DNA from: Acidobacteriota bacterium
GTDB taxonomy: Bacteria; Acidobacteriota; Terriglobia; Terriglobales; Acidobacteriaceae
Direction of reading: 5' to 3'
DNA: 7,520 nucleotides
Assembly: GCA_021805955.1 (NCBI GenBank)
Contig: JAJZDO010000889.1
Coordinates: forward strand, 1-7,520
The notes under the pieces are model-generated. The model had not been told where the DNA came from. It did not search any database and saw only the letters and a list, made by a program, of their open reading frames with translations. Positions within the stretch are counted from its first letter, which is position 1; every line of letters starts with the position of its first letter. Below are positions 1 through 7,520 of this stretch, piece after piece. Position numbers and translations under genes: made by a program.

Positions 1-685
1 CTCCGCCGTCCTTGCGTACGCGCCAGAAGTGAACAATGGTGAACAGGATCACGAGCGATGGCAGCACTGCCACATGGAGCACATAAAAACGCAGCAGTGC
101 TGCCTCGCCAACAGTATGACCGCCGAGTAACAACTCCCGGAGTTTGCCGCCGACCAATGGAGCGTAACTGCCGATGTTCGTTCCCACCGTGATCGCCCAG
201 TAGGCGAGCTGATCCCATGGCAACAGATACCCGGTGAAGGAGAGTCCAAGCGTCAGTAACAGCAGCATCACACCGACCACCCAGTTGAACTGGCGCGGTT
301 TCTTGTAGGAACCGGTATAGAACACCCGGCACATGTGCAGAAAGACACAGATCACCATGGCGTGCGCTGCCCAGCGATGCATGTTGCGCAGAAACGACCC
401 CATAAAGACGGCAAACTGGAGATCCTTCATGTCCTGGTATGCGGCTGGCGGGTAGGGCCGGTAGTAGCACATCAGTGCGATTCCAGTGGTCAGCAGAATC
501 AAAAAGAGAAAGAAGGTAATGAAGCCCAAGTAAAACGAGTACTTGAACCGTAAGTTCTCTCTCTTCACTTTGGCCGGATGGATATGCAGCCACACATTGA
601 GAAAGACCAGTTCGGACTTCCCTTTATCTGTGGACAGCGGATCCCGCCGCACGATCGATTGCCAGATTTCGCGAATCCATTTCAT
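1..685 (-). CDS. Cytochrome b, N-terminal four-helix haem domain (partial, runs off left edge)
   Basis: The visible 228 residues form the di-haem half of a cytochrome b, the membrane subunit that oxidises or reduces quinone in a Rieske/cytochrome b complex. Four haem-ligand histidines are visible: H103 and H117 in helix B, and H190 and H204 in helix D. Both pairs are 14 positions apart. As I recall, this is bc1-type spacing, whereas plastid-type b6 has one extra residue in helix D. The Qo-side motif TGYLLPWDQ is at 151-159, and hydrophobic helices are at about 50-72, 104-121, 133-153 and 200-220. The last visible residues ([10 protein letters not shown]) resemble the region that follows helix D in b6-like proteins, so it cannot be seen whether the C-terminal half is fused or a separate subunit. 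The start ATG (683-685) lies two bases after the Rieske stop with no clear Shine-Dalgarno, suggesting translational coupling. The gene is open at the left edge. Confidence 0.95.
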
Positions 686-687
686 CG

Positions 688-1143
688 TTACACCATGAGC
701 CGATACGTCGGTGGCACTACTTTGTCTTTGTCGACACGAAGCTGTCCATCGCGCGTCAGCGTTACCTCAAACCAGTTGAGGGACTGCGGCGCTGGCCCAT
801 GCAACACGGCGCCAGTTGGGGAAAACACGCTGCCGTGGCACGGACAATGGAACTCGCGGTCGTCCTGGAAGTACGCGACCGTGCATCCCAGGTGCGTGCA
901 GACCGCGCTGGCCACAGCAAACCCTCTTTCACGGTCGCGGAACACGAAGATTTTTTCGTCCGCCAGGAAAGTGGGAGGGCCATAGGGAAAGTCCCCGGGG
1001 TTGCCAATCTTGAACGACTGCGGCGGCCCGTAAAAGACGCTCGGAACCAGGAAGCGGACCACTGCCCCAAAACTTACCCCGACCGCCGAACAAAGCGCGG
1101 CCATGCCTGCAGTTCCCCAACTGAGAAAATTTCGACGATTCAT
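688..1143 (-). CDS. Rieske [2Fe-2S] protein of a cytochrome bc-type complex
   Basis: This 151-residue protein is the high-potential Fe-S subunit that passes electrons between quinol and cytochrome c. It begins with a twin-arginine sequence (NRRNFLS, residues 2-8) followed by a hydrophobic segment at about 12-34, so it is a Tat-exported, N-terminally anchored periplasmic protein. Cluster box I is CTHLGC (82-87: C82 and H84 as ligands) and box II is CPCHGS (100-105: C100 and H103 as ligands). C87 and C102 are placed to form the usual disulfide. S105, which hydrogen-bonds the cluster, is present, but the position usually held by tyrosine two residues later is F107. That change is expected to lower the midpoint potential somewhat. 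The start is supported by AGGGGA eight bases upstream. The gene begins 12 bases after the oxidoreductase stop and ends 2 bases before cytochrome b, so all three are probably co-translated. Confidence 0.95.
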
Positions 1144-1155
1144 ACCTGAGATCCC

Positions 1156-2994
1156 CTATTCAAAGACTTCCCGTTCCTGCTGTTCCAAAGCTTCCATGCT
1201 GATGGCTCCGGTTGGACAACGATCTGCGCATAGCCCGCAGCGAATACACTTTTCTTCGTTCTTGAGGATGGCCCCGGCATGGCCAGCTTTCAATTCGGCG
1301 GAGGGCATTCCGTAGCGATGTTGAATCAGGGCTTCGTATCGCTCGTCGCCGCTGACCTGTGTCAGGTCGACCAGGCGCAGGCATCTCTCCGGACACACGT
1401 CCACGCAACCGGCGCAGAGGATGCACTTCGATCCGTCAAAGATCGTGTTCACCTGGCACTTGAGGCAGCGAAGCCCTTCAGCGCGACCCTGTTGCTCGTC
1501 GAAGCCCAGTTCAACTTCGGCGATTCCAATGCGCCGGTTCGCCGCAAGCACAGGCATCTTCTGCCTAGGTGTGGCGAGAAAGCCGCGCGGCATTTTCCAG
1601 TCTGGCATAATGCGAAAGCGACTCAGCACGGTCTTGGTAGTTTTGCCGTTAAGATGCAAGTGAATCGACCGCGCCGCGCGGTGGCCATTCGCCACAGCCT
1701 CGACAAGCACTCGCGGTCCGAAGGCCACGTCCCCTCCGGCAAAGACGCCGGGAGCTGTGGTCATCAGATCCTCATCGATCTTAAGAGTTCCACGCGGCGT
1801 CACCTGGACTCCCTCTTCCCCGCTGAGGAATGAGAGATCTGCCTGCTGGCCGATGGCCAGGATCACGCTGTCGCAGGGAATGATTTTCTCTTCGTCGCTG
1901 AAGGCAGGATTGAAGCGGCCATTCTCATCGAAGACGGTGAGGCAGCGACGGACCTTGAGGCCGGTAACCACGCCATTTTCACCGATAATTTCCTTGGGCC
2001 CCCAACCGTTATCTACCTCAATGCCTTCCTGTTCGGCCTCATCCACCTCGCCTTTCCATGCAGGCATCTGAACGCGGGATTCGAGACTGACCAGATCCAC
2101 TTGTTCCGCACCGGAGCGCATTGCCATGCGGGCCGCGTCGAGAGCGGGTTGCAGATTCTTGGCCTCATCGCCGTTCAGGCCCGAATCAACCGATTCCTGC
2201 ACTAGACGCACGGCGGCACGGGCCACATCAATGGCCACGTTGCCGCCGCCCACAACCACGACGCGCTTGCCCAGTTCAATCTCGAAGCCGAGGTTGACAT
2301 TGATCAGAAAGTCGATGCCGTTGTACACACCCGCGAGATGCGCTCCCGGAATATTCAGTTCGCGGCCCTTGTTAAGCCCAGTGGATAGCAGGACCGCGTC
2401 GCTCTTCGACCGCAGTTCCGCGAAGGAGATGTCGCGCCCCAGGGTAACGCGGGTATGCAGCGTCACGCCCATGGCGAGGATGTTGTCCACTTCCATCTTG
2501 ATGATTTCCCGCGGCAACCGAAATTGCGGGATGCCCAGATACAGCATCCCTCCAGGGACCGGAGCGGACTCGTACACATCGACCGTGTAGCCCAACAGAG
2601 CCAGATCGTGGGCGCAGGTGAGACCACAGACACCCGCCCCAACAATAGCGACGCGCTTGCCGCGCTGGGCCGGGGGAGGCAGTTTTTTTCGTGCCGGATC
2701 ATGTCCGCTGCCCAGGTTGTGTCGGTCCGTGGCGTAACGCTTCAGCGCGCAGATGGCGATCGGTTCGTCGATCTTGCCGCGCCGACAATTGTCTTCACAA
2801 GGATGGGCACAGATACGTCCCAGCACATACGCGAAAGGATTTGGAGCGCGTGCCAGCAGGTATGCTTCTTCATCCTTTGAAATCCCGATGGCCTGGACGT
2901 ACCGCCCGCACTCCGTATGGATGGGGCAGGCAGTGCGGCAGGGAATATTCCGATCGAAGTATTCCTGGTCCGGGACCGTGACAAAATAACTCAT
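1156..2994 (-). CDS. Cytoplasmic FAD/NAD(P) oxidoreductase with N- and C-terminal Fe-S domains (GltD/NfnB-like)
   Basis: This 612-residue flavoprotein has three parts. Residues 19-82 form a Cys-rich Fer4_20-type domain (C19, C23, C29, C62, C66, C70, C82), as in glutamate synthase small subunit and dihydropyrimidine dehydrogenase. Residues 114-450 are the two-dinucleotide reductase core, with an FAD fingerprint GAGVCG (119-124), an NAD(P) fingerprint GGGNVA (249-254) and a second FAD motif, FAGGD (418-422). The C-terminus has an extra CxxC (C510, C513) and a two-cluster ferredoxin: C524, C527, C530, C534 and C583, C586, C589, C593. No signal peptide or membrane segment is visible, so it should face the cytoplasm. 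It lies directly upstream of the Rieske gene, which suggests that it exchanges electrons between NAD(P)H and the quinone complex. Expected partners are NAD(P), FAD and probably ferredoxin. A GTG start at 3126 would add 44 residues, but it has no Shine-Dalgarno and the extension looks non-homologous. I prefer the ATG at 2994, which is preceded by GGTGG at 4 bases. Confidence 0.9.
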   Translation of the reverse strand: MSYFVTVPDQEYFDRNIPCRTACPIHTECGRYVQAIGISKDEEAYLLARAPNPFAYVLGRICAHPCEDNCRRGKIDEPIAICALKRYATDRHNLGSGHDPARKKLPPPAQRGKRVAIVGAGVCGLTCAHDLALLGYTVDVYESAPVPGGMLYLGIPQFRLPREIIKMEVDNILAMGVTLHTRVTLGRDISFAELRSKSDAVLLSTGLNKGRELNIPGAHLAGVYNGIDFLINVNLGFEIELGKRVVVVGGGNVAIDVARAAVRLVQESVDSGLNGDEAKNLQPALDAARMAMRSGAEQVDLVSLESRVQMPAWKGEVDEAEQEGIEVDNGWGPKEIIGENGVVTGLKVRRCLTVFDENGRFNPAFSDEEKIIPCDSVILAIGQQADLSFLSGEEGVQVTPRGTLKIDEDLMTTAPGVFAGGDVAFGPRVLVEAVANGHRAARSIHLHLNGKTTKTVLSRFRIMPDWKMPRGFLATPRQKMPVLAANRRIGIAEVELGFDEQQGRAEGLRCLKCQVNTIFDGSKCILCAGCVDVCPERCLRLVDLTQVSGDERYEALIQHRYGMPSAELKAGHAGAILKNEEKCIRCGLCADRCPTGAISMEALEQQEREVFE

Positions 2995-2998
2995 GCGT

Positions 2999-3003
2999 CC
3001 ACC
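2999..3003 (-). promoter_or_regulatory. Ribosome binding site deciding the oxidoreductase start
   Basis: GGTGG lies four bases before the ATG at 2992-2994. It is only a modest match with short spacing, but the protein from this ATG (MSYFVTVPDQ...) begins like the family, whereas the upstream in-frame GTG at 3124-3126 has no purine-rich sequence before it. Confidence 0.5.
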
Positions 3004-3073
3004 ATTCTGATGAGTTTGCAAAATCACTGTATTCCGAGAACGCATTCCACGTATAGTGCCGACTGAAATCGCC

Positions 3074-3104
3074 CTCCAGCGAACCGATGCAGTGTCCGCT
3101 GGAG
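3074..3104. repeat. Perfect 8-bp inverted repeat in the cytochrome-oxidoreductase leader
   Basis: CTCCAGCG (3074-3081) and its exact reverse complement CGCTGGAG (3097-3104) flank a 15-base loop. The GC-rich stem lies in the 152-base gap between the cytochrome stop and the oxidoreductase start. No T-run follows on the minus strand, so it is not a standard intrinsic terminator. It could be an mRNA stability or processing hairpin that sets different levels for the cytochromes and the downstream enzymes, or a protein-binding site. The rest of the gap shows no convincing promoter. Confidence 0.5.
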
Positions 3105-3146
3105 AGTGAAGCTGACTCCACAGCACCTTGAAAAGTTACTCTACGG

Positions 3147-3551
3147 CTACTGTTGGGCCTTCAGCTTTTCGATCTCCTCATCGCTCAGGGACTTGGAGAA
3201 CGCGGACGGGTTCTTGTCTTTGCGGTTCACCTGGTCGTACACCAGAAACTCATAGATCTCTTTTCCCTGGCTGTTGCTGATCCCCGAGTTTGGCTTGTGC
3301 ATCATGCGCTTTACGTAACGTTCCCACTCTGCCTGGGTCATGGTTGTGTTGATAGGGCGCGCAATGGTATGGCACGAGGAGCACTTGCTGACAAACAGCG
3401 AGTACGCCTTCTGTTGCGCCGGCGGATAGGTCGAGACATTGATCTTGTCAGGTCCCTTGTCCTGCGGGAGGGTTACGTTGCCGTTCTGAGCGACGAGCAA
3501 CAGAGGAACGGAACAAGCTGCGAGTGCCATCACGAGAATCATCTTGTGCAT
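3147..3551 (-). CDS. Small periplasmic monohaem cytochrome c (paralogue 1)
   Basis: This 134-residue exported protein has an N-terminal hydrophobic signal at about 3-21 and a single haem-binding motif, CSSCH (57-61). The likely distal ligand is M83 or M84, in the sequence MMHKP. After the haem there is a mostly helical segment, then a Lys-rich tail containing SLSDEEIEKLKAQQ. It resembles the next gene upstream throughout the core: a shared pattern of V-S-[ST]-Y-P before the haem, CS-x-CHT, R, TT, W and M-x-x-KP. The pair therefore look like a tandem duplication. The likely role is a soluble or loosely bound electron carrier in the periplasm, between the outer-membrane cytochrome-porin and the Rieske/cytochrome b complex. 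The start is well supported by AAGGAG (3560-3565), eight bases upstream. The exact partner cannot be told from sequence. Confidence 0.88.
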   Translation of the reverse strand: MHKMILVMALAACSVPLLLVAQNGNVTLPQDKGPDKINVSTYPPAQQKAYSLFVSKCSSCHTIARPINTTMTQAEWERYVKRMMHKPNSGISNSQGKEIYEFLVYDQVNRKDKNPSAFSKSLSDEEIEKLKAQQ

Positions 3552-3606
3552 TTCAGTCTCTCCTTACCACATGTACCGGATATTTGTCCTGAAGTTCTTG
3601 TTGGTC

Positions 3607-3621
3607 TTGTCTACCCGACAA
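3607..3621. repeat. Short hairpin-forming repeat between the two cytochrome genes
   Basis: TTGTC and GACAA flank a 5-base loop immediately after the stop codon of the upstream cytochrome. The 5-bp stem is weak and no T-run follows. The 70-base gap it lies in otherwise holds only the ribosome binding site of the next gene. It may be chance, or a minor intercistronic hairpin. Confidence 0.25.
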
Positions 3622-3990
3622 CTACCACTTATCTTTCGGCAAATGGGTCTGGTAGTAATTGATGAAGTCGATGATTTGCTCTGCCTCGCGGTCGTTAAAA
3701 TCCGCAGCTGGCTTGGCTTGCATCACATGGACCCAATGCTCGGCCGTGGCAGGAGTCTGTGTAGTGCGCAATGCCCGATCCAGGGTATGGCATTCGGAAC
3801 AGGTATATTTGAACGTTTTGTATCCCTGCCGGATATTGGCCGGATACGAAGAGACATCGATGGGCACGTCCTTTTTATTCCCGGTGAAGAAGCCCCCGTA
3901 TTGGGCATGTGCCGTGCCGAGTAAACCCGCCACGAACAAAAGCCCCGCCATGCGCCCTGCCATACACCACGAAAATTCCCTATGTTGCAT
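3622..3990 (-). CDS. Small periplasmic monohaem cytochrome c (paralogue 2)
   Basis: This 122-residue protein has a Sec signal peptide with hydrophobic core at about 11-27 and a probable cleavage after AHA (27-29). It carries one haem motif, CSECH (64-68), and a likely distal Met at M90 in the sequence VMQAKP. The segment IDVSSYP (44-50) before the haem and the M-x-x-KP after it match the downstream paralogue, but this copy lacks that protein's charged tail. It is placed directly after the cytochrome-porin gene, with a 30-base gap, so it is the obvious candidate for the first periplasmic acceptor or donor of that protein. Two in-frame ATGs exist. The one at 3990 has GGAGG six bases upstream and gives a normal signal peptide. 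The one at 4005 has only a distant purine-rich stretch and adds five residues. Confidence 0.88.
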   Translation of the reverse strand: MQHREFSWCMAGRMAGLLFVAGLLGTAHAQYGGFFTGNKKDVPIDVSSYPANIRQGYKTFKYTCSECHTLDRALRTTQTPATAEHWVHVMQAKPAADFNDREAEQIIDFINYYQTHLPKDKW

Positions 3991-3996
3991 GATTTT

Positions 3997-4001
3997 CCTC
4001 C
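3997..4001 (-). promoter_or_regulatory. Ribosome binding site deciding the start of cytochrome paralogue 2
   Basis: GGAGG, six bases before the ATG at 3988-3990, is a near-ideal Shine-Dalgarno. It favours this start over the ATG at 4003-4005, which would place the site inside the coding sequence. Confidence 0.7.
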
Positions 4002-4020
4002 ACATGATGGCTGCACTCCC

Positions 4021-5319
4021 TTAGAAATTGAACTCGACGTCGGACATGATCGTCCGGCCGGAACTGCCCACGCCTGCGATTGGGTCGCGGCCATGGAGAT
4101 TACTGTACGAAAGCCGTCCGATAATGTTGCCCGACGGCGTGAGGGTGCGTTGCAGGCCGAAGCTCGGTTGCTCCTGGCTGACCCCTCCGATGCCACCCAC
4201 GATACGCTGGTTCAAGCGGTCATAGCGCACTGTGGCCGCCATACCCCGGTAAAAGAAGTAATCCAATTCGCCGTAGTAGTCCTTGGAAGTGAAGCTGCTG
4301 GCAGGTCCGGGTTGACTGATCTCGTAGCCATCGTGGTCGTACATAAAACCACCCAGAATGTTGAGCTTGTTATGGAATGCCATGTAGTTGGCAAAAATCC
4401 CATTTCTGTGTATTACCGGATAGAAAGTGAACTGGTTCGGGGCACCGAAATTCTGTATCTGGTTCTTTTTCCCGTAGTAACTCAGGAATGAGACGCCGCT
4501 CTCCGGCGCATACCACCAATCGAGGTCCACATAGACATCCTTGGCATTTCTGGCATCCGGACCCGTGATCGTACTGCCGTCCGCATGGTCTCCATTGCTT
4601 ACGCTCAACGATGCGCCCAGGATTTGCTTATATCTAGGGAGCGCCCAGGTATATCCAGCACGAAGCCCTACCATGTGCTGGTCCAGAACAAAGCTATTCG
4701 GATCGGTGTACTCCCACATCAATGGCGCCGCGGGTAAGAGGCTTTCCGTGTTTGCGGCCGTAGTTCCATTGGCGCCCATCACATGCATGTCGCCGCCTTG
4801 AATATACCAACTGCTTTTTGCTGTGCCGCCGACGTAGCCGAAGTATCCAACTGCGACGCTCGGGCTGGTGTCACCCCCGGCAACCAGGTTGATCTGCGAA
4901 TAGTAAAAGAAATTCGTGTCTGGAATCCAGCCAGCCAGGTACGCATTCCAGGTACCCAACTGGAAAGAGGACGTGGAGGTTGGGGGGGTGCCATCCTGGG
5001 TATTTCGTTGCACCGCAAAGTCTAAATCCGCCACTGCAAAGGCCGCGTTATTGCCTAGCGTCCACATCGGCTCTTGTGCGACCAGGTCTGCGATACGCGG
5101 CGACAGTTCCCCTTTTTGCAGCGCGGGCGGCAAATGGAACCCCAGCCGCTTGAACATATAACCCTCCTCGTTCAGGACGGGGGGAATGGTATGACAGGCA
5201 AAGCAGCGAAGCTTATATCGGCGGGCAAACGCTGGAATTGCGTTGCCGGGCTGAGGTAGCAGCAGGACAAAGCCGAACACCAACAGAATGACTTTCAGAC
5301 CAGATCTCCAGAGTTTCAT
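4021..5319 (-). CDS. Outer-membrane monohaem cytochrome-porin fusion (Cyc2-like)
   Basis: This 432-residue protein has a signal peptide (hydrophobic core about 8-22, likely cleavage after GNA, 26-28). A very short cytochrome segment follows, with one haem motif CFACH (39-43). The sequence PAFARRYKL precedes the haem and a P-x-L-N-x-x-G-x-x-FK pattern (47-57) follows it. From about residue 85 to the end it alternates short aromatic/hydrophobic beta-strands with Gly/Asn/Asp-rich turns and finishes in Phe, the usual outer-membrane barrel signature. This layout, including the PAFAR-x(5)-CxxCH segment, is what I recall for Cyc2, the fused cytochrome-porin that oxidises Fe(II) at the cell surface. 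Length is in that family's range. The expected job is moving electrons across the outer membrane through a haem plugged in the barrel. The substrate is not shown by sequence. The ATG at 5319 has AGGAGA eight bases upstream; a TTG at 5385 lies upstream of the predicted promoter and is rejected. Confidence 0.8.
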   Translation of the reverse strand: MKLWRSGLKVILLVFGFVLLLPQPGNAIPAFARRYKLRCFACHTIPPVLNEEGYMFKRLGFHLPPALQKGELSPRIADLVAQEPMWTLGNNAAFAVADLDFAVQRNTQDGTPPTSTSSFQLGTWNAYLAGWIPDTNFFYYSQINLVAGGDTSPSVAVGYFGYVGGTAKSSWYIQGGDMHVMGANGTTAANTESLLPAAPLMWEYTDPNSFVLDQHMVGLRAGYTWALPRYKQILGASLSVSNGDHADGSTITGPDARNAKDVYVDLDWWYAPESGVSFLSYYGKKNQIQNFGAPNQFTFYPVIHRNGIFANYMAFHNKLNILGGFMYDHDGYEISQPGPASSFTSKDYYGELDYFFYRGMAATVRYDRLNQRIVGGIGGVSQEQPSFGLQRTLTPSGNIIGRLSYSNLHGRDPIAGVGSSGRTIMSDVEFNF

Positions 5320-5343: not shown

Positions 5344-5360
5344 AGCACGTCTGGAGCCAG
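5344..5360 (-). promoter_or_regulatory. Predicted sigma-54 (-24/-12) promoter for the electron-transfer operon
   Basis: On the minus strand the sequence CTGGCTCCAGACGTGCT fits the sigma-54 consensus YTGGCACGNNNNTTGCW at 10 of the 13 defined positions. The invariant GG (5358-5357) and GC (5346-5345) are exactly ten bases apart. Transcription would begin near 5333, just upstream of the cytochrome-porin ribosome binding site. The neighbouring upstream gene encodes a sigma-54-dependent activator, which makes this more than a chance match. No comparable GG-N10-GC site was seen upstream of either small cytochrome or of the oxidoreductase. The site could therefore drive the whole block down to cytochrome b. 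Confidence 0.6.
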
Positions 5361-5418: not shown

Positions 5419-6819
5419 TCATTCCCCAGTTTCCATCGCGATATGGGGAGCGGATTCCCCAGGCTGCTGCGCTCTCTCCCGCCTGAGGAGAGTGTAAAAC
5501 GTCTTCCGGTCCACCCCGGCTTCTCGCGCGGCAGCACTCACGTTGCCGCCGCAACGGGCCAGCACGGCTTGTGCATAGGAGCTTTCGAAGCTGGCCAGAT
5601 ACTGTTCCCTGGCATCCTTCCAGGGAAGAACGGCAAGACTGCTCACTCCCTCTACCTTCGGAGAATCCTCTTCCAGATCCTCCGGCCCAAGAACACCGCC
5701 GGGATGCAAGGCGGTCAGCCGTTCCATGACGTTCTTCAGTTGGCGCACGTTGCCGGGCCAGCGCTCCCGAAGCAGCGCCTCATAGAATTGCGGCGAGGCC
5801 GAAAGACTCTTGCCATAGAGGCGGGAAAATCGTTCCAGAAAAAAGCGCGCCAGGTGTTGGATGTCCTCTGGCCGTTCCCGCAAAGGCGGCAGTTTCACTG
5901 TGACCACGCTCAGACGGTAATAGAGTTCTTCGCGAAAGGTTCCGGCCTTGATCTTTTCCATCAAATTCTGGTTGGTGGCGCACAAAATGCGGCATTCCAC
6001 GCGCACTGGTGTTAACCCGCCCAGCCGCCGCAATACTCGCTCCTCAACAAAGCGAAACAGGCGCGTTTGCAGCTCCACCCCAAGGTCTCCGATTTCATCC
6101 AGAAACAGCGTGCCGCCGTCTGCAGACTCGATCAGCCCTTTCTTGGTGCGTTCCGCGCCGGTAAACGCGCCGCGCTCATATCCGAACAGTTCGCTCTCGA
6201 TCAGAGATCCCGGCATGGCGCTACACTCCACAGGCACAAATGGGCCATCCTTGCGTCGGCTCTGGTTGTGGACAAACCGGGCCATGACCTCCTTGCCCGT
6301 ACCGCTCTCTCCCAGGATCATTACCGTTGCATCGGTGGCCGCCGCCCTGCGGCACTTTTCCATCTGCTCGAGCATTGCGGCGCTGCGGCTCCTTGCCGCA
6401 TCCGCCTCGCCGAGGGCTTCCAGACGGCCTTTCAGTGTTTCGACTTCGCGCTCCAGCGTGGCGTGGGAAAGTGCGCGCCTGACCACCAGCAGAAGATCCT
6501 CGCGATTGAAAGGCTTCTGTAGATAGTCGAAGGCGCCGTTACGCATCGCCAGCACCGCACCCTCCACCGATCCGAAGGCGGTGAGGAAGACGATGGGAAG
6601 TCCTGGATGGACTTCATGCAGACGGGCAAAGACTTCTTCCCCTGACATCCCCGGCATGCGTACGTCCAGCAGAACCAGGTCGGGCGGGTTGGCCAGGCAT
6701 TCGGCCAGCCCTTTGGCGGGGTCCACAAAAACTGAGACCGTGGTGCCGGGCAAACGCAGCATCCGCTGGATGTTTTCACCCAGCGCGGCTTCATCGTCGA
6801 TGACAAGAATGCGGCTCAC
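5419..6819 (-). CDS. NtrC-family sigma-54-dependent response regulator
   Basis: This 466-residue protein is complete in all three domains. The receiver (about 1-120) has acidic residues D8 and D9, the phospho-acceptor D52, T80 and K102. The AAA+ domain (about 145-375) has Walker A GESGTGKE (170-177), the sigma-54-contacting loop GAFTGA (217-222) and Walker B GGTLFLDE (235-242), followed by WPGNVRQL (354-361). The C-terminus carries a Fis-type helix-turn-helix (about 424-447: GGNVSAAAREAGVDRKTFY). All residues needed for phosphorylation and for remodelling sigma-54 polymerase are present, so it should be an active activator. It starts with GTG inside the kinase stop codon (GTGA overlap), with GGAGG nine bases upstream. 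The predicted sigma-54 promoter lies immediately downstream, in front of the cytochrome-porin gene, which is its most likely target. Confidence 0.95.
   Translation of the reverse strand: MSRILVIDDEAALGENIQRMLRLPGTTVSVFVDPAKGLAECLANPPDLVLLDVRMPGMSGEEVFARLHEVHPGLPIVFLTAFGSVEGAVLAMRNGAFDYLQKPFNREDLLLVVRRALSHATLEREVETLKGRLEALGEADAARSRSAAMLEQMEKCRRAAATDATVMILGESGTGKEVMARFVHNQSRRKDGPFVPVECSAMPGSLIESELFGYERGAFTGAERTKKGLIESADGGTLFLDEIGDLGVELQTRLFRFVEERVLRRLGGLTPVRVECRILCATNQNLMEKIKAGTFREELYYRLSVVTVKLPPLRERPEDIQHLARFFLERFSRLYGKSLSASPQFYEALLRERWPGNVRQLKNVMERLTALHPGGVLGPEDLEEDSPKVEGVSSLAVLPWKDAREQYLASFESSYAQAVLARCGGNVSAAAREAGVDRKTFYTLLRRERAQQPGESAPHIAMETGE
6816..6819 (-). other. Four-base kinase/regulator overlap (GTGA)
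   Basis: The kinase TGA stop (6816-6818) overlaps the regulator GTG start (6817-6819). Such overlaps typically couple translation and indicate that the two proteins form a cognate pair made in fixed proportion. Confidence 0.85.
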
Positions 6820-7520
6820 TCTGTCGTTCCTCCGGCGAACCAGTGATACGGCTGGCCACGGGTGAATCGCGCCGGAGGTAACTCGATCACGAAGCTGGCG
6901 CCGCCGCCGTTCCTTGGCTCATAGCGAATTCGGCCATCATACATATCCAACAGGCTGGCCGCCAGAAACAGCCCCAAACCCAGCCGCTCCCGTCCCGTAC
7001 TTTGCGAAATGAATGGTTCAAAGAGGTGTCCCCGGATACTCTCCGGCACGCCCGGCCCGTTGTCTTCGATTTTGATAACCACTTTAGCCCCCGCCGTGCG
7101 ATAAGGCTCAAGACGCACCCATATCACGGCCTCGTCCTGCCCTTTCAGCGCTTCAAGCGCATTGCTCAACAAGCCGCGGACGACTTCACCTACCACATGT
7201 TCGGGCACATCCACACGCGGTGCTTCAGCGATCTCCTCCACCAACCGCGCTCCCTGACTTTCGGCTGAAGGTCGGAATGCCTGCAGTGCTTCCTCCAAGG
7301 CCTTCTGCGGGATCGAGGTATCGAAAATTTCTCCTCCTCGCTCGCGTCGCAGCGCCTGTAACAGGGTACTTGCAATGTTACCCATGTAGCGCGACTCTTT
7401 AAGCATCTGCTCAAGATCGGCGCAAAGGGCAGCATCTCCTTTGCGTTCGTCGAGCAGCACTTCAATGCGGCCCGCCACAATCGCCAGCGGGTTGTTGAAC
7501 TCGTGCATGAAGCCAGCCGT
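6816..7520 (-). CDS. Sensor histidine kinase, catalytic part (partial, runs off right edge)
   Basis: The 234 visible residues are the transmitter half of a two-component kinase. The dimerisation/phospho-acceptor box is MHEFNNPL (fragment residues 5-12, phosphorylated H6). The HATPase domain follows, with an N box ending in N120, G1 box DNGPG (153-157), F box LFEPF (166-170) and G2 box GLGL (181-184). The order and HEFNNPL-type H-box fit the NtrB-like kinases that pair with NtrC-family regulators. Reading continues in frame to the window edge (TAGF before the H-box Met), so the true start and the sensory domain lie outside. No membrane segment is visible in this part, and the signal sensed cannot be inferred. 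The protein ends in the overlap with the response regulator. Confidence 0.93.
   Translation of the reverse strand, partial: TAGFMHEFNNPLAIVAGRIEVLLDERKGDAALCADLEQMLKESRYMGNIASTLLQALRRERGGEIFDTSIPQKALEEALQAFRPSAESQGARLVEEIAEAPRVDVPEHVVGEVVRGLLSNALEALKGQDEAVIWVRLEPYRTAGAKVVIKIEDNGPGVPESIRGHLFEPFISQSTGRERLGLGLFLAASLLDMYDGRIRYEPRNGGGASFVIELPPARFTRGQPYHWFAGGTTE

Follow-up and report, generated by a model that had tools for sequence, protein, structure and literature searches.

A conserved Acidobacteriota gene unit that encodes a Cyc2-like cytochrome-porin and a probable relative of the anammox Rieske/cytochrome b-NAD complexes

The gene unit described here lies in a 7,520-nucleotide stretch of an Acidobacteriota draft genome (GenBank assembly GCA_021805955.1, contig JAJZDO010000889.1), hereafter called the window. 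NAD-linked Rieske/cytochrome b complexes are described from the anammox bacterium Kuenenia stuttgartiensis, where Kustd1480-1485 and Kuste4569-4574 are proposed to bifurcate the electrons of menaquinol between NAD(P)+ and a high-potential acceptor, and where a new haem b, proposed to bridge the dimer, is held by His43 of Kuste4571 or His62 of Kustd1481 (PMC12954380). Cyc2 proteins, the second point of comparison, are outer-membrane cytochrome-porins with the published signature AXPXFAR[Q/K][T/Y], a CXXCH motif and then PXL; the Cyc2 of Mariprofundus oxidises Fe(II) and has a potential of 208 mV (PMC8406198).

The unit in and around the window shares with the Kuenenia complexes, as described in PMC12954380, a Rieske protein, a b6-type cytochrome b, a subunit IV-like part and an NAD(P) oxidoreductase, together with a hexa- or octahaem cytochrome c and, judging from conserved residues, the bridging-haem histidine and four Fe-S clusters. 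Unlike them, it has cytochrome b fused to subunit IV, a tyrosine at the position of the haem-cN cysteine and no HAO-like protein, and it adds a haem-porin, small cytochromes c and a sigma-54 regulator pair. The extHIJKLMNOPQS cluster of Geobacter shares an outer-membrane porin, a Rieske protein and cytochrome b with the window, where ExtQ- and ExtS-like parts match below cut-off. It encodes 10- and 12-haem cytochromes, its multihaem proteins including ExtM and ExtN, as well as the rhodanese ExtH (PMC5877670), whereas a profile search of the unit's proteins gave no 10- or 12-haem protein and no rhodanese match. The ext cluster was rejected as the family of this unit on two grounds: its porin ExtI is haemless, and the genes listed for it include no NAD(P) module (PMC5877670). 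The rus and pet operons of Acidithiobacillus likewise combine a Cyc2-type porin with a bc1 complex serving electron flow from Fe(II), but as described they are two separate operons, with oxidase genes beside cyc2 (PMC10654088). No report coupling a Cyc2-like porin to a Rieske/cytochrome b-NAD unit was found in searches of open-licence literature. The system in the window is real and conserved, and it pairs a Cyc2-like porin with what appears to be a variant of the Rieske/cytochrome b-NAD complex of anammox bacteria.

The window corresponds to positions 9211-16730 of contig C14 in the 3.4 Mb draft host genome, which is 86.5% complete; the two sequences mismatch at 10 of 7,520 positions, three of them adjacent (3977-3979). 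Based upon the list of open reading frames (ORFs) and Pfam, the minus strand carries genes for a sensor kinase and a sigma-54-type activator, followed in this order by those for the haem-porin, two small cytochromes (C1 and C2), the oxidoreductase, the Rieske protein and cytochrome b. The original prediction had placed the six parts from porin to cytochrome b contiguously on one strand, and the ORFs and profile matches confirmed this arrangement, with no internal stops. The porin gene (4021..5319, minus) encodes 432 amino acids with a signal-like N-terminus and one CFACH motif. Fifteen bases further lies C1 (3622..4005, minus), a predicted periplasmic mono-haem cytochrome c with a Cytochrome_CBB3-like match below cut-off, followed by C2 (3147..3551, minus), a second protein of this kind, whose Pfam match is also below cut-off. 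The oxidoreductase (1156..2994, minus; 612 amino acids) is a predicted cytoplasmic, GltD/Nfn-like FAD/Fe-S NAD(P) enzyme with matches to Pyr_redox_2, Fer4_20 and C-terminal 4Fe-4S domains. After a gap of 12 bases comes the Rieske iron-sulphur protein (688..1143, minus; Pfam Rieske), which has a TAT-like signal (TAT_signal below cut-off), and after two more bases cytochrome b (1..685, minus, to the window edge), a b6-type protein with a fused subunit IV-like part and 428 amino acids in the full contig (Pfam Cytochrome_B and Cytochrom_B_C). Outside the window, the start of an ORF for a six-CXXCH cytochrome (C14:8609-7221) overlaps the cytochrome b stop. It is followed by an ORF for a plastocyanin/CarboxypepD protein resembling copper proteins (C14:6969-6283; Pfam).

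The porin is Cyc2-like by its motifs and its predicted fold. It reads AIPAFARRY, three residues, CFACH and, at +4, PVL, and includes KLR and TIP stretches (AIPAFARRY-KLR-CFACH-TIP-PVL). Set against the description in PMC8406198, it shares with Cyc2 porins the single CXXCH, AXPXFAR, PXL four residues on, a predicted 16-strand barrel and a length above the minimum of 365 amino acids, and it differs in carrying Arg for Gln/Lys, its single deviation from the signature, and in having a Rieske/cytochrome b-NAD unit as its neighbour. The full signature fits in a related porin at locus L061 (IPAFARKY) and in a second porin of the host (AVPSFARQT), and CXXCH is invariant across 47 aligned porins. An AlphaFold2 model showed 16 long strands with a mean pLDDT of 76, and its Foldseek matches included OprO, OprP, PorB and OmpT; OprO and OprP are the folds named for Cyc2 (PMC8406198). 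Neither Pfam nor NCBIfam gave a family match for the porin at E 0.01, and its profile found no match in a PDB sequence search. The earlier assignment as a Cyc2-like haem-porin was examined by signature, which deviates at the Arg position, and by predicted fold, which has 16 long strands.

The Rieske protein, the oxidoreductase and cytochrome b were each compared with known structures or with the Kuenenia proteins. Among 177,635 distinct PDB sequences, the best matches of the Rieske protein were 9rk4 (85.3 bits) and 9rk3 (69.5 bits), which are the Kuenenia Rieske proteins Kuste4569 and Kustd1480 (PMC12954380). A second-sphere serine (CHGS) was present in all 75 Rieske sequences that could be parsed, 13 of the 88 not being parsed. 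The best PDB match of the oxidoreductase was 9bov/9bp5, the NfnABC structure that was used as a homologue of the Kuenenia NAD(P) subunit (PMC12954380). An alignment of 88 relatives shows sixteen of its cysteines kept in 86, with gaps there in the remaining two, and these residues appear to fit four Fe-S clusters, the number in the Kuenenia models. Where the second nucleotide-binding strand ends, Nfn-type enzymes have YRR, but the window's protein has L-E, with E305 present in 87 of the 88. By the usual Rossmann rule, this difference hints at NAD+ rather than NADP+.

Cytochrome b scored 280 bits against the NCBIfam model ExtP, for which the cut-off is 290. The published haem ligand was identified as His34 of the window's protein (codon 584..586, minus), corresponding to His43 of Kuste4571 and His62 of Kustd1481, because residue numbers match in 12 of 37 loci from Brocadiales homologues. 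The first His of LHLHP is residue 43 together with Arg247 in nine of these loci and residue 62 together with Arg266-Lys267 in three; most of the remaining 25 were partial, split differently or started elsewhere. A cytochrome b match was present in all 39 genomes searched of the Scalindua order. His34 was found in all 86 oxidoreductase-linked cytochromes b from 88 loci (none was extracted from L071 or L104). The motif around it occurred in 81 of the 86 but was missing from all 31 control cytochromes b of Acidobacteriota, these controls being two of the host and 29 best-scoring loci, a small part of the matches. Two of the 31 carry a His in this column in another context; none of six further controls does, and the single regular-expression match among those six (L058) lies near the far end of the protein. 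In 39 further loci from a Desulfobacterota-side search (152 genomes minus one duplicate), the His was present in all 13 with an oxidoreductase in the stretch examined.

To examine conservation, eight oxidoreductases served as queries against a collection with a single genome for each species, and the best 80 of at least 422 relatives, a set biased to close kin, were analyzed; 62 of these loci had at least 3 kb of upstream sequence. By record title, 52 belong to Acidobacteriota, 27 to other groups and one carries no group. In 78 of the 80, the 6 kb downstream of the oxidoreductase contain both a Rieske gene and a cytochrome b gene, encoded on its strand. Since this order recurs across relatives, chance gene order and assembly artefact were rejected, and the refuting case named first in the original prediction, an order limited to close relatives, did not hold. 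The two exceptions were L104, which stops at a contig edge, and L130, in which the Rieske match belongs to an ORF that overlaps the oxidoreductase gene. Of the 80 loci, 71 have a multihaem cytochrome. A same-strand haem-porin was present in 51 (50 by homology and L083 by motif alone), upstream in 45 of them and only downstream in six. By group, the haem-porin was found in 43 of 52 Acidobacteriota loci (35 of the 38 with at least 3 kb upstream) and in eight of the 28 others, which were from Armatimonadota, Neomarinimicrobiota and Bacteroidota/Ignavibacteria plus the one without a group. Relatives of the NAD-linked complex occur, by record title, in nine further groups of about phylum rank besides Acidobacteriota, Planctomycetota included.

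Within the class of the host, the oxidoreductase was detected at E 1e-80 or better in 30 of 121 genomes. In the window's family, each of the nine listed carriers (G000, G007, G023, G073, G112, G121, G147, G171 and G210) has a porin match no more than about 5 kb from the oxidoreductase, on its contig and strand, and among listed genomes without the oxidoreductase only one of 13 (G084) has a porin match anywhere; the co-occurrence is significant among the genomes listed (Fisher p 2e-5), related genomes not being independent. Twenty regions around porin matches were picked from the best matches among 80 genomes; one is the host's own, and the other 19 belong to further Acidobacteriota. Two of these (L038 and L042) have the window's order minus C1 (type A), and five (L046, L048, L052, L053 and L055) have the order porin, copper protein, oxidoreductase, Rieske protein, split cytochrome b and eight-haem cytochrome. 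In the remaining 13, no oxidoreductase of this kind was seen next to the porin. When 19 type A loci were compared with the window, oxidoreductase identity was 70-92%, and porin identity was 39-44% in 16 and 73-90% in three (L059, L060 and L066). C1 was present in all three relatives with a porin of at least 73% identity and in none of the 16 at or below 44%. C2 was present in all 19, and also 5' of the oxidoreductase in three Verrucomicrobiota loci and one Binatota locus. The analysis supports a single conserved unit of Cyc2-like porin, periplasmic cytochromes, quinone complex and NAD(P) module.

For the function of this unit we tentatively favour, at somewhat short of an even chance, a Rieske/cytochrome b complex of the Kuenenia type that includes an NAD(P) oxidoreductase of its own and is wired to the cell surface, the porin serving mainly as an electron exit. 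The gene set, its order and its conservation are read from sequence, and we infer the electron path. Menaquinol would be oxidised at the positive-side quinone site. One electron would pass uphill to FAD and NAD+ by way of cytochrome b, the dimer-bridging haem at His34 and four Fe-S clusters, and the other through the Rieske protein and the six-haem cytochrome to the small cytochromes c, the one-haem porin forming the outer end of this second, high-potential branch. The porin would most likely pass electrons out, for example to oxidised iron in acidic, metal- or humic-rich soil. Following the Kuenenia scheme, we write the net reaction as QH2 + NAD+ + c(ox) = Q + NADH + c(red), so that two arms would meet at the quinol site rather than form a straight line from donor to NADH. 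NADH would be made only if the cytochrome side stays oxidised, and the porin would therefore serve best as an exit; electrons entering through it would reduce c and so oppose NADH formation. The electron-export alternative raised in the original prediction accordingly appears the better fit within one complex, on thermodynamics derived from a published proposal. The reaction would be reversible in principle, a strong external donor causing reversal in which NADH is consumed to reduce quinone.

The host genome offers further points that speak for export. A gene for NrdD, the class III anaerobic ribonucleotide reductase (Pfam), and a radical-SAM gene that is likely its activase lie 1-4 kb past the unit (C14:2203-5149, minus), and because of this downstream reductase growth without oxygen is plausible; the pair was not found in the stretches examined for 23 relatives. 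RuBisCO was not found in the 86.5% complete genome, in which other carbon-fixation routes were not searched, and autotrophy by RuBisCO was set aside. That electrons leaving through the cytochrome-porin would pay for NADH, in what would be a widespread, unnamed unit with quinol bifurcation as an alternative to reverse complex I, is possible but doubtful. If true, extracellular electron exchange and the NAD pool would be directly linked in Acidobacteriota, Bacteroidota/Ignavibacteria, Neomarinimicrobiota and Armatimonadota, and common soil bacteria would gain a route coupling outside redox chemistry to NADH. The bifurcation idea would also become testable outside anammox bacteria, the source of the NAD-linked complexes described in PMC12954380.

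Several observations weigh against this surface-wired, Kuenenia-type reading. The Kuenenia mechanism is itself a proposal, and the Fe(II) oxidation reported for those Cyc2 proteins that were tested points to import. The haem region of the porin was modelled at low confidence, and of the 62 loci with at least 3 kb of upstream sequence, 20 yielded no haem-porin. Three haem-copper oxidase (COX1) genes are present in the host and would allow the cytochrome branch to terminate at O2 with no part for the porin. The basic residues of Kuenenia at +204/+205 after the haem-ligand His are unmatched in the window (Pro238, counted from the sequence). Tyr52 is the equivalent of the b6f haem-cN Cys35, and a Cys occurs at this position in only two of the 86 linked cytochromes b, although the Kuenenia models include haem cN; the complex in the window thus appears to be a relative of the Kuenenia type without haem cN, and not a full member by that feature. 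The His was also found in eight further cytochromes b of the Desulfobacterota-side set with no oxidoreductase found within about 10 kb, two of them (L252 and L253) within ext-like clusters. Because of these eight, His34 was rejected as a strict marker of the NAD module and seems to mark a clade instead.

Import by the porin is the rival that survives best, and we consider it rather unlikely. Electrons from Fe(II) or another donor would pass from the porin to the small cytochromes and a terminal oxidase, and the NAD complex would share the cytochrome pool or run in reverse, NADH and donor electrons together reducing quinone. The Fe(II) oxidation by Mariprofundus Cyc2 cited above and the nearly full Cyc2 signature of the window's porin favour this arrangement, as do the three COX1 genes. 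These genes, however, are on contigs C23 and C67 and none is on the window's contig (bd-type oxidases were not searched), incoming electrons would oppose NADH formation by the complex, and the missing RuBisCO also counts against it.

An arrangement with no extracellular route at all is unlikely. Here the porin would serve passage of solutes or metalloids, and high-potential electrons would go through the periplasmic cytochromes to oxidases or other reductases. A precedent is ExtI of Geobacter, which lies beside a Rieske/cytochrome b pair and is tied to selenite and tellurite reduction (PMC5877670), and the porin diverges strongly between type A units that are otherwise alike. A porin-sized ORF without CXXCH is found upstream, together with C2, in L097, L103, L107 and L123 (two Verrucomicrobia, one Binatota and one Thermoanaerobaculia); its porin nature is presumed from size. 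Against this stand the invariant CXXCH of the aligned porins and the co-occurrence of porin and oxidoreductase across the window's family. The linear route of the original prediction, with Fe(II) electrons entering through the porin and driven by the proton motive force through one complex to NAD(P)H, is highly improbable and found no support: all the cofactors it needs are encoded in one unit and Zetaproteobacteria are assumed to run electron transport in reverse through complex III to complex I (PMC7029218), but the low-potential electron would come from quinol and not from Fe(II), reduced cytochrome would oppose the reaction, and the missing RuBisCO match also counts against it.

The unit appears to be modular. 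Since a porin-sized ORF without haem motif stands upstream in some units and the NAD module is absent from others, an outer-membrane pore seems to accompany the complex often but to be exchangeable, and a unit can do without the NAD module.

The regulator pair lies 5' of the unit (7520-5419) and is also present in type A relatives where the contig extends that far. It consists of the 3' part of a membrane sensor histidine kinase (6816..7520, minus; 370 amino acids in the contig; Pfam HisKA and HATPase_c) and an NtrC-type sigma-54 activator, a response regulator with a GAFTGA motif (5419..6819, minus). A candidate sigma-54 -24/-12 promoter, TGGCTCCAGACGTGC, was identified 5' of the porin by its consensus match (5345..5359, minus). 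A sigma-54-like site with at least seven of 11 consensus positions occurs within 160 nt of the porin in 17 of 20 type A loci, the window's included, and is missing at that score in L059, L062 and L065. This score is weak evidence when taken alone, since 29% of random 160-nt windows reach it. In 16 of the 17 loci the site starts 24 to 54 bases 5' of the script-chosen start codon, and 4.5% of random 35-nt windows reach the same score. The kinase and activator may control the whole unit.

Related clusters were seen in the host and elsewhere. The host has a second unit on contig C64 (L006, 4749-9351, minus) that encodes the exact-motif Cyc2-like porin, a Rieske protein and a cytochrome b fused to four CXXCH motifs, with no oxidoreductase. 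A third cluster, on C98 (L051, 5837-10118, minus), encodes a haem-porin, a copper protein and a six-haem cytochrome, with no Rieske protein or cytochrome b seen in 12.9 kb. At the contig end of C14 (L004, about 94-1253, minus) is a remnant of a further Cyc2-like porin with in-frame stops and frame changes. In L246, a porin, copper protein, Rieske protein, cytochrome b and eight-haem cytochrome occur with no oxidoreductase. Molybdenum-oxidoreductase-like genes precede a Rieske/cytochrome b/eight-haem unit in L250, where the equivalent of His34 is present and an NAD module was not found. L058 contains a porin-C1-Rieske-cytochrome b unit without the NAD module (6950-11349, minus) on the strand opposite to an adjoining NAD-linked unit, and the window-type porin cassette is thus paired with two types of complex. 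In L093, from Armatimonadetes, a porin, C2 and alternative complex III-like genes lie 5' of the oxidoreductase, Rieske protein and cytochrome b.

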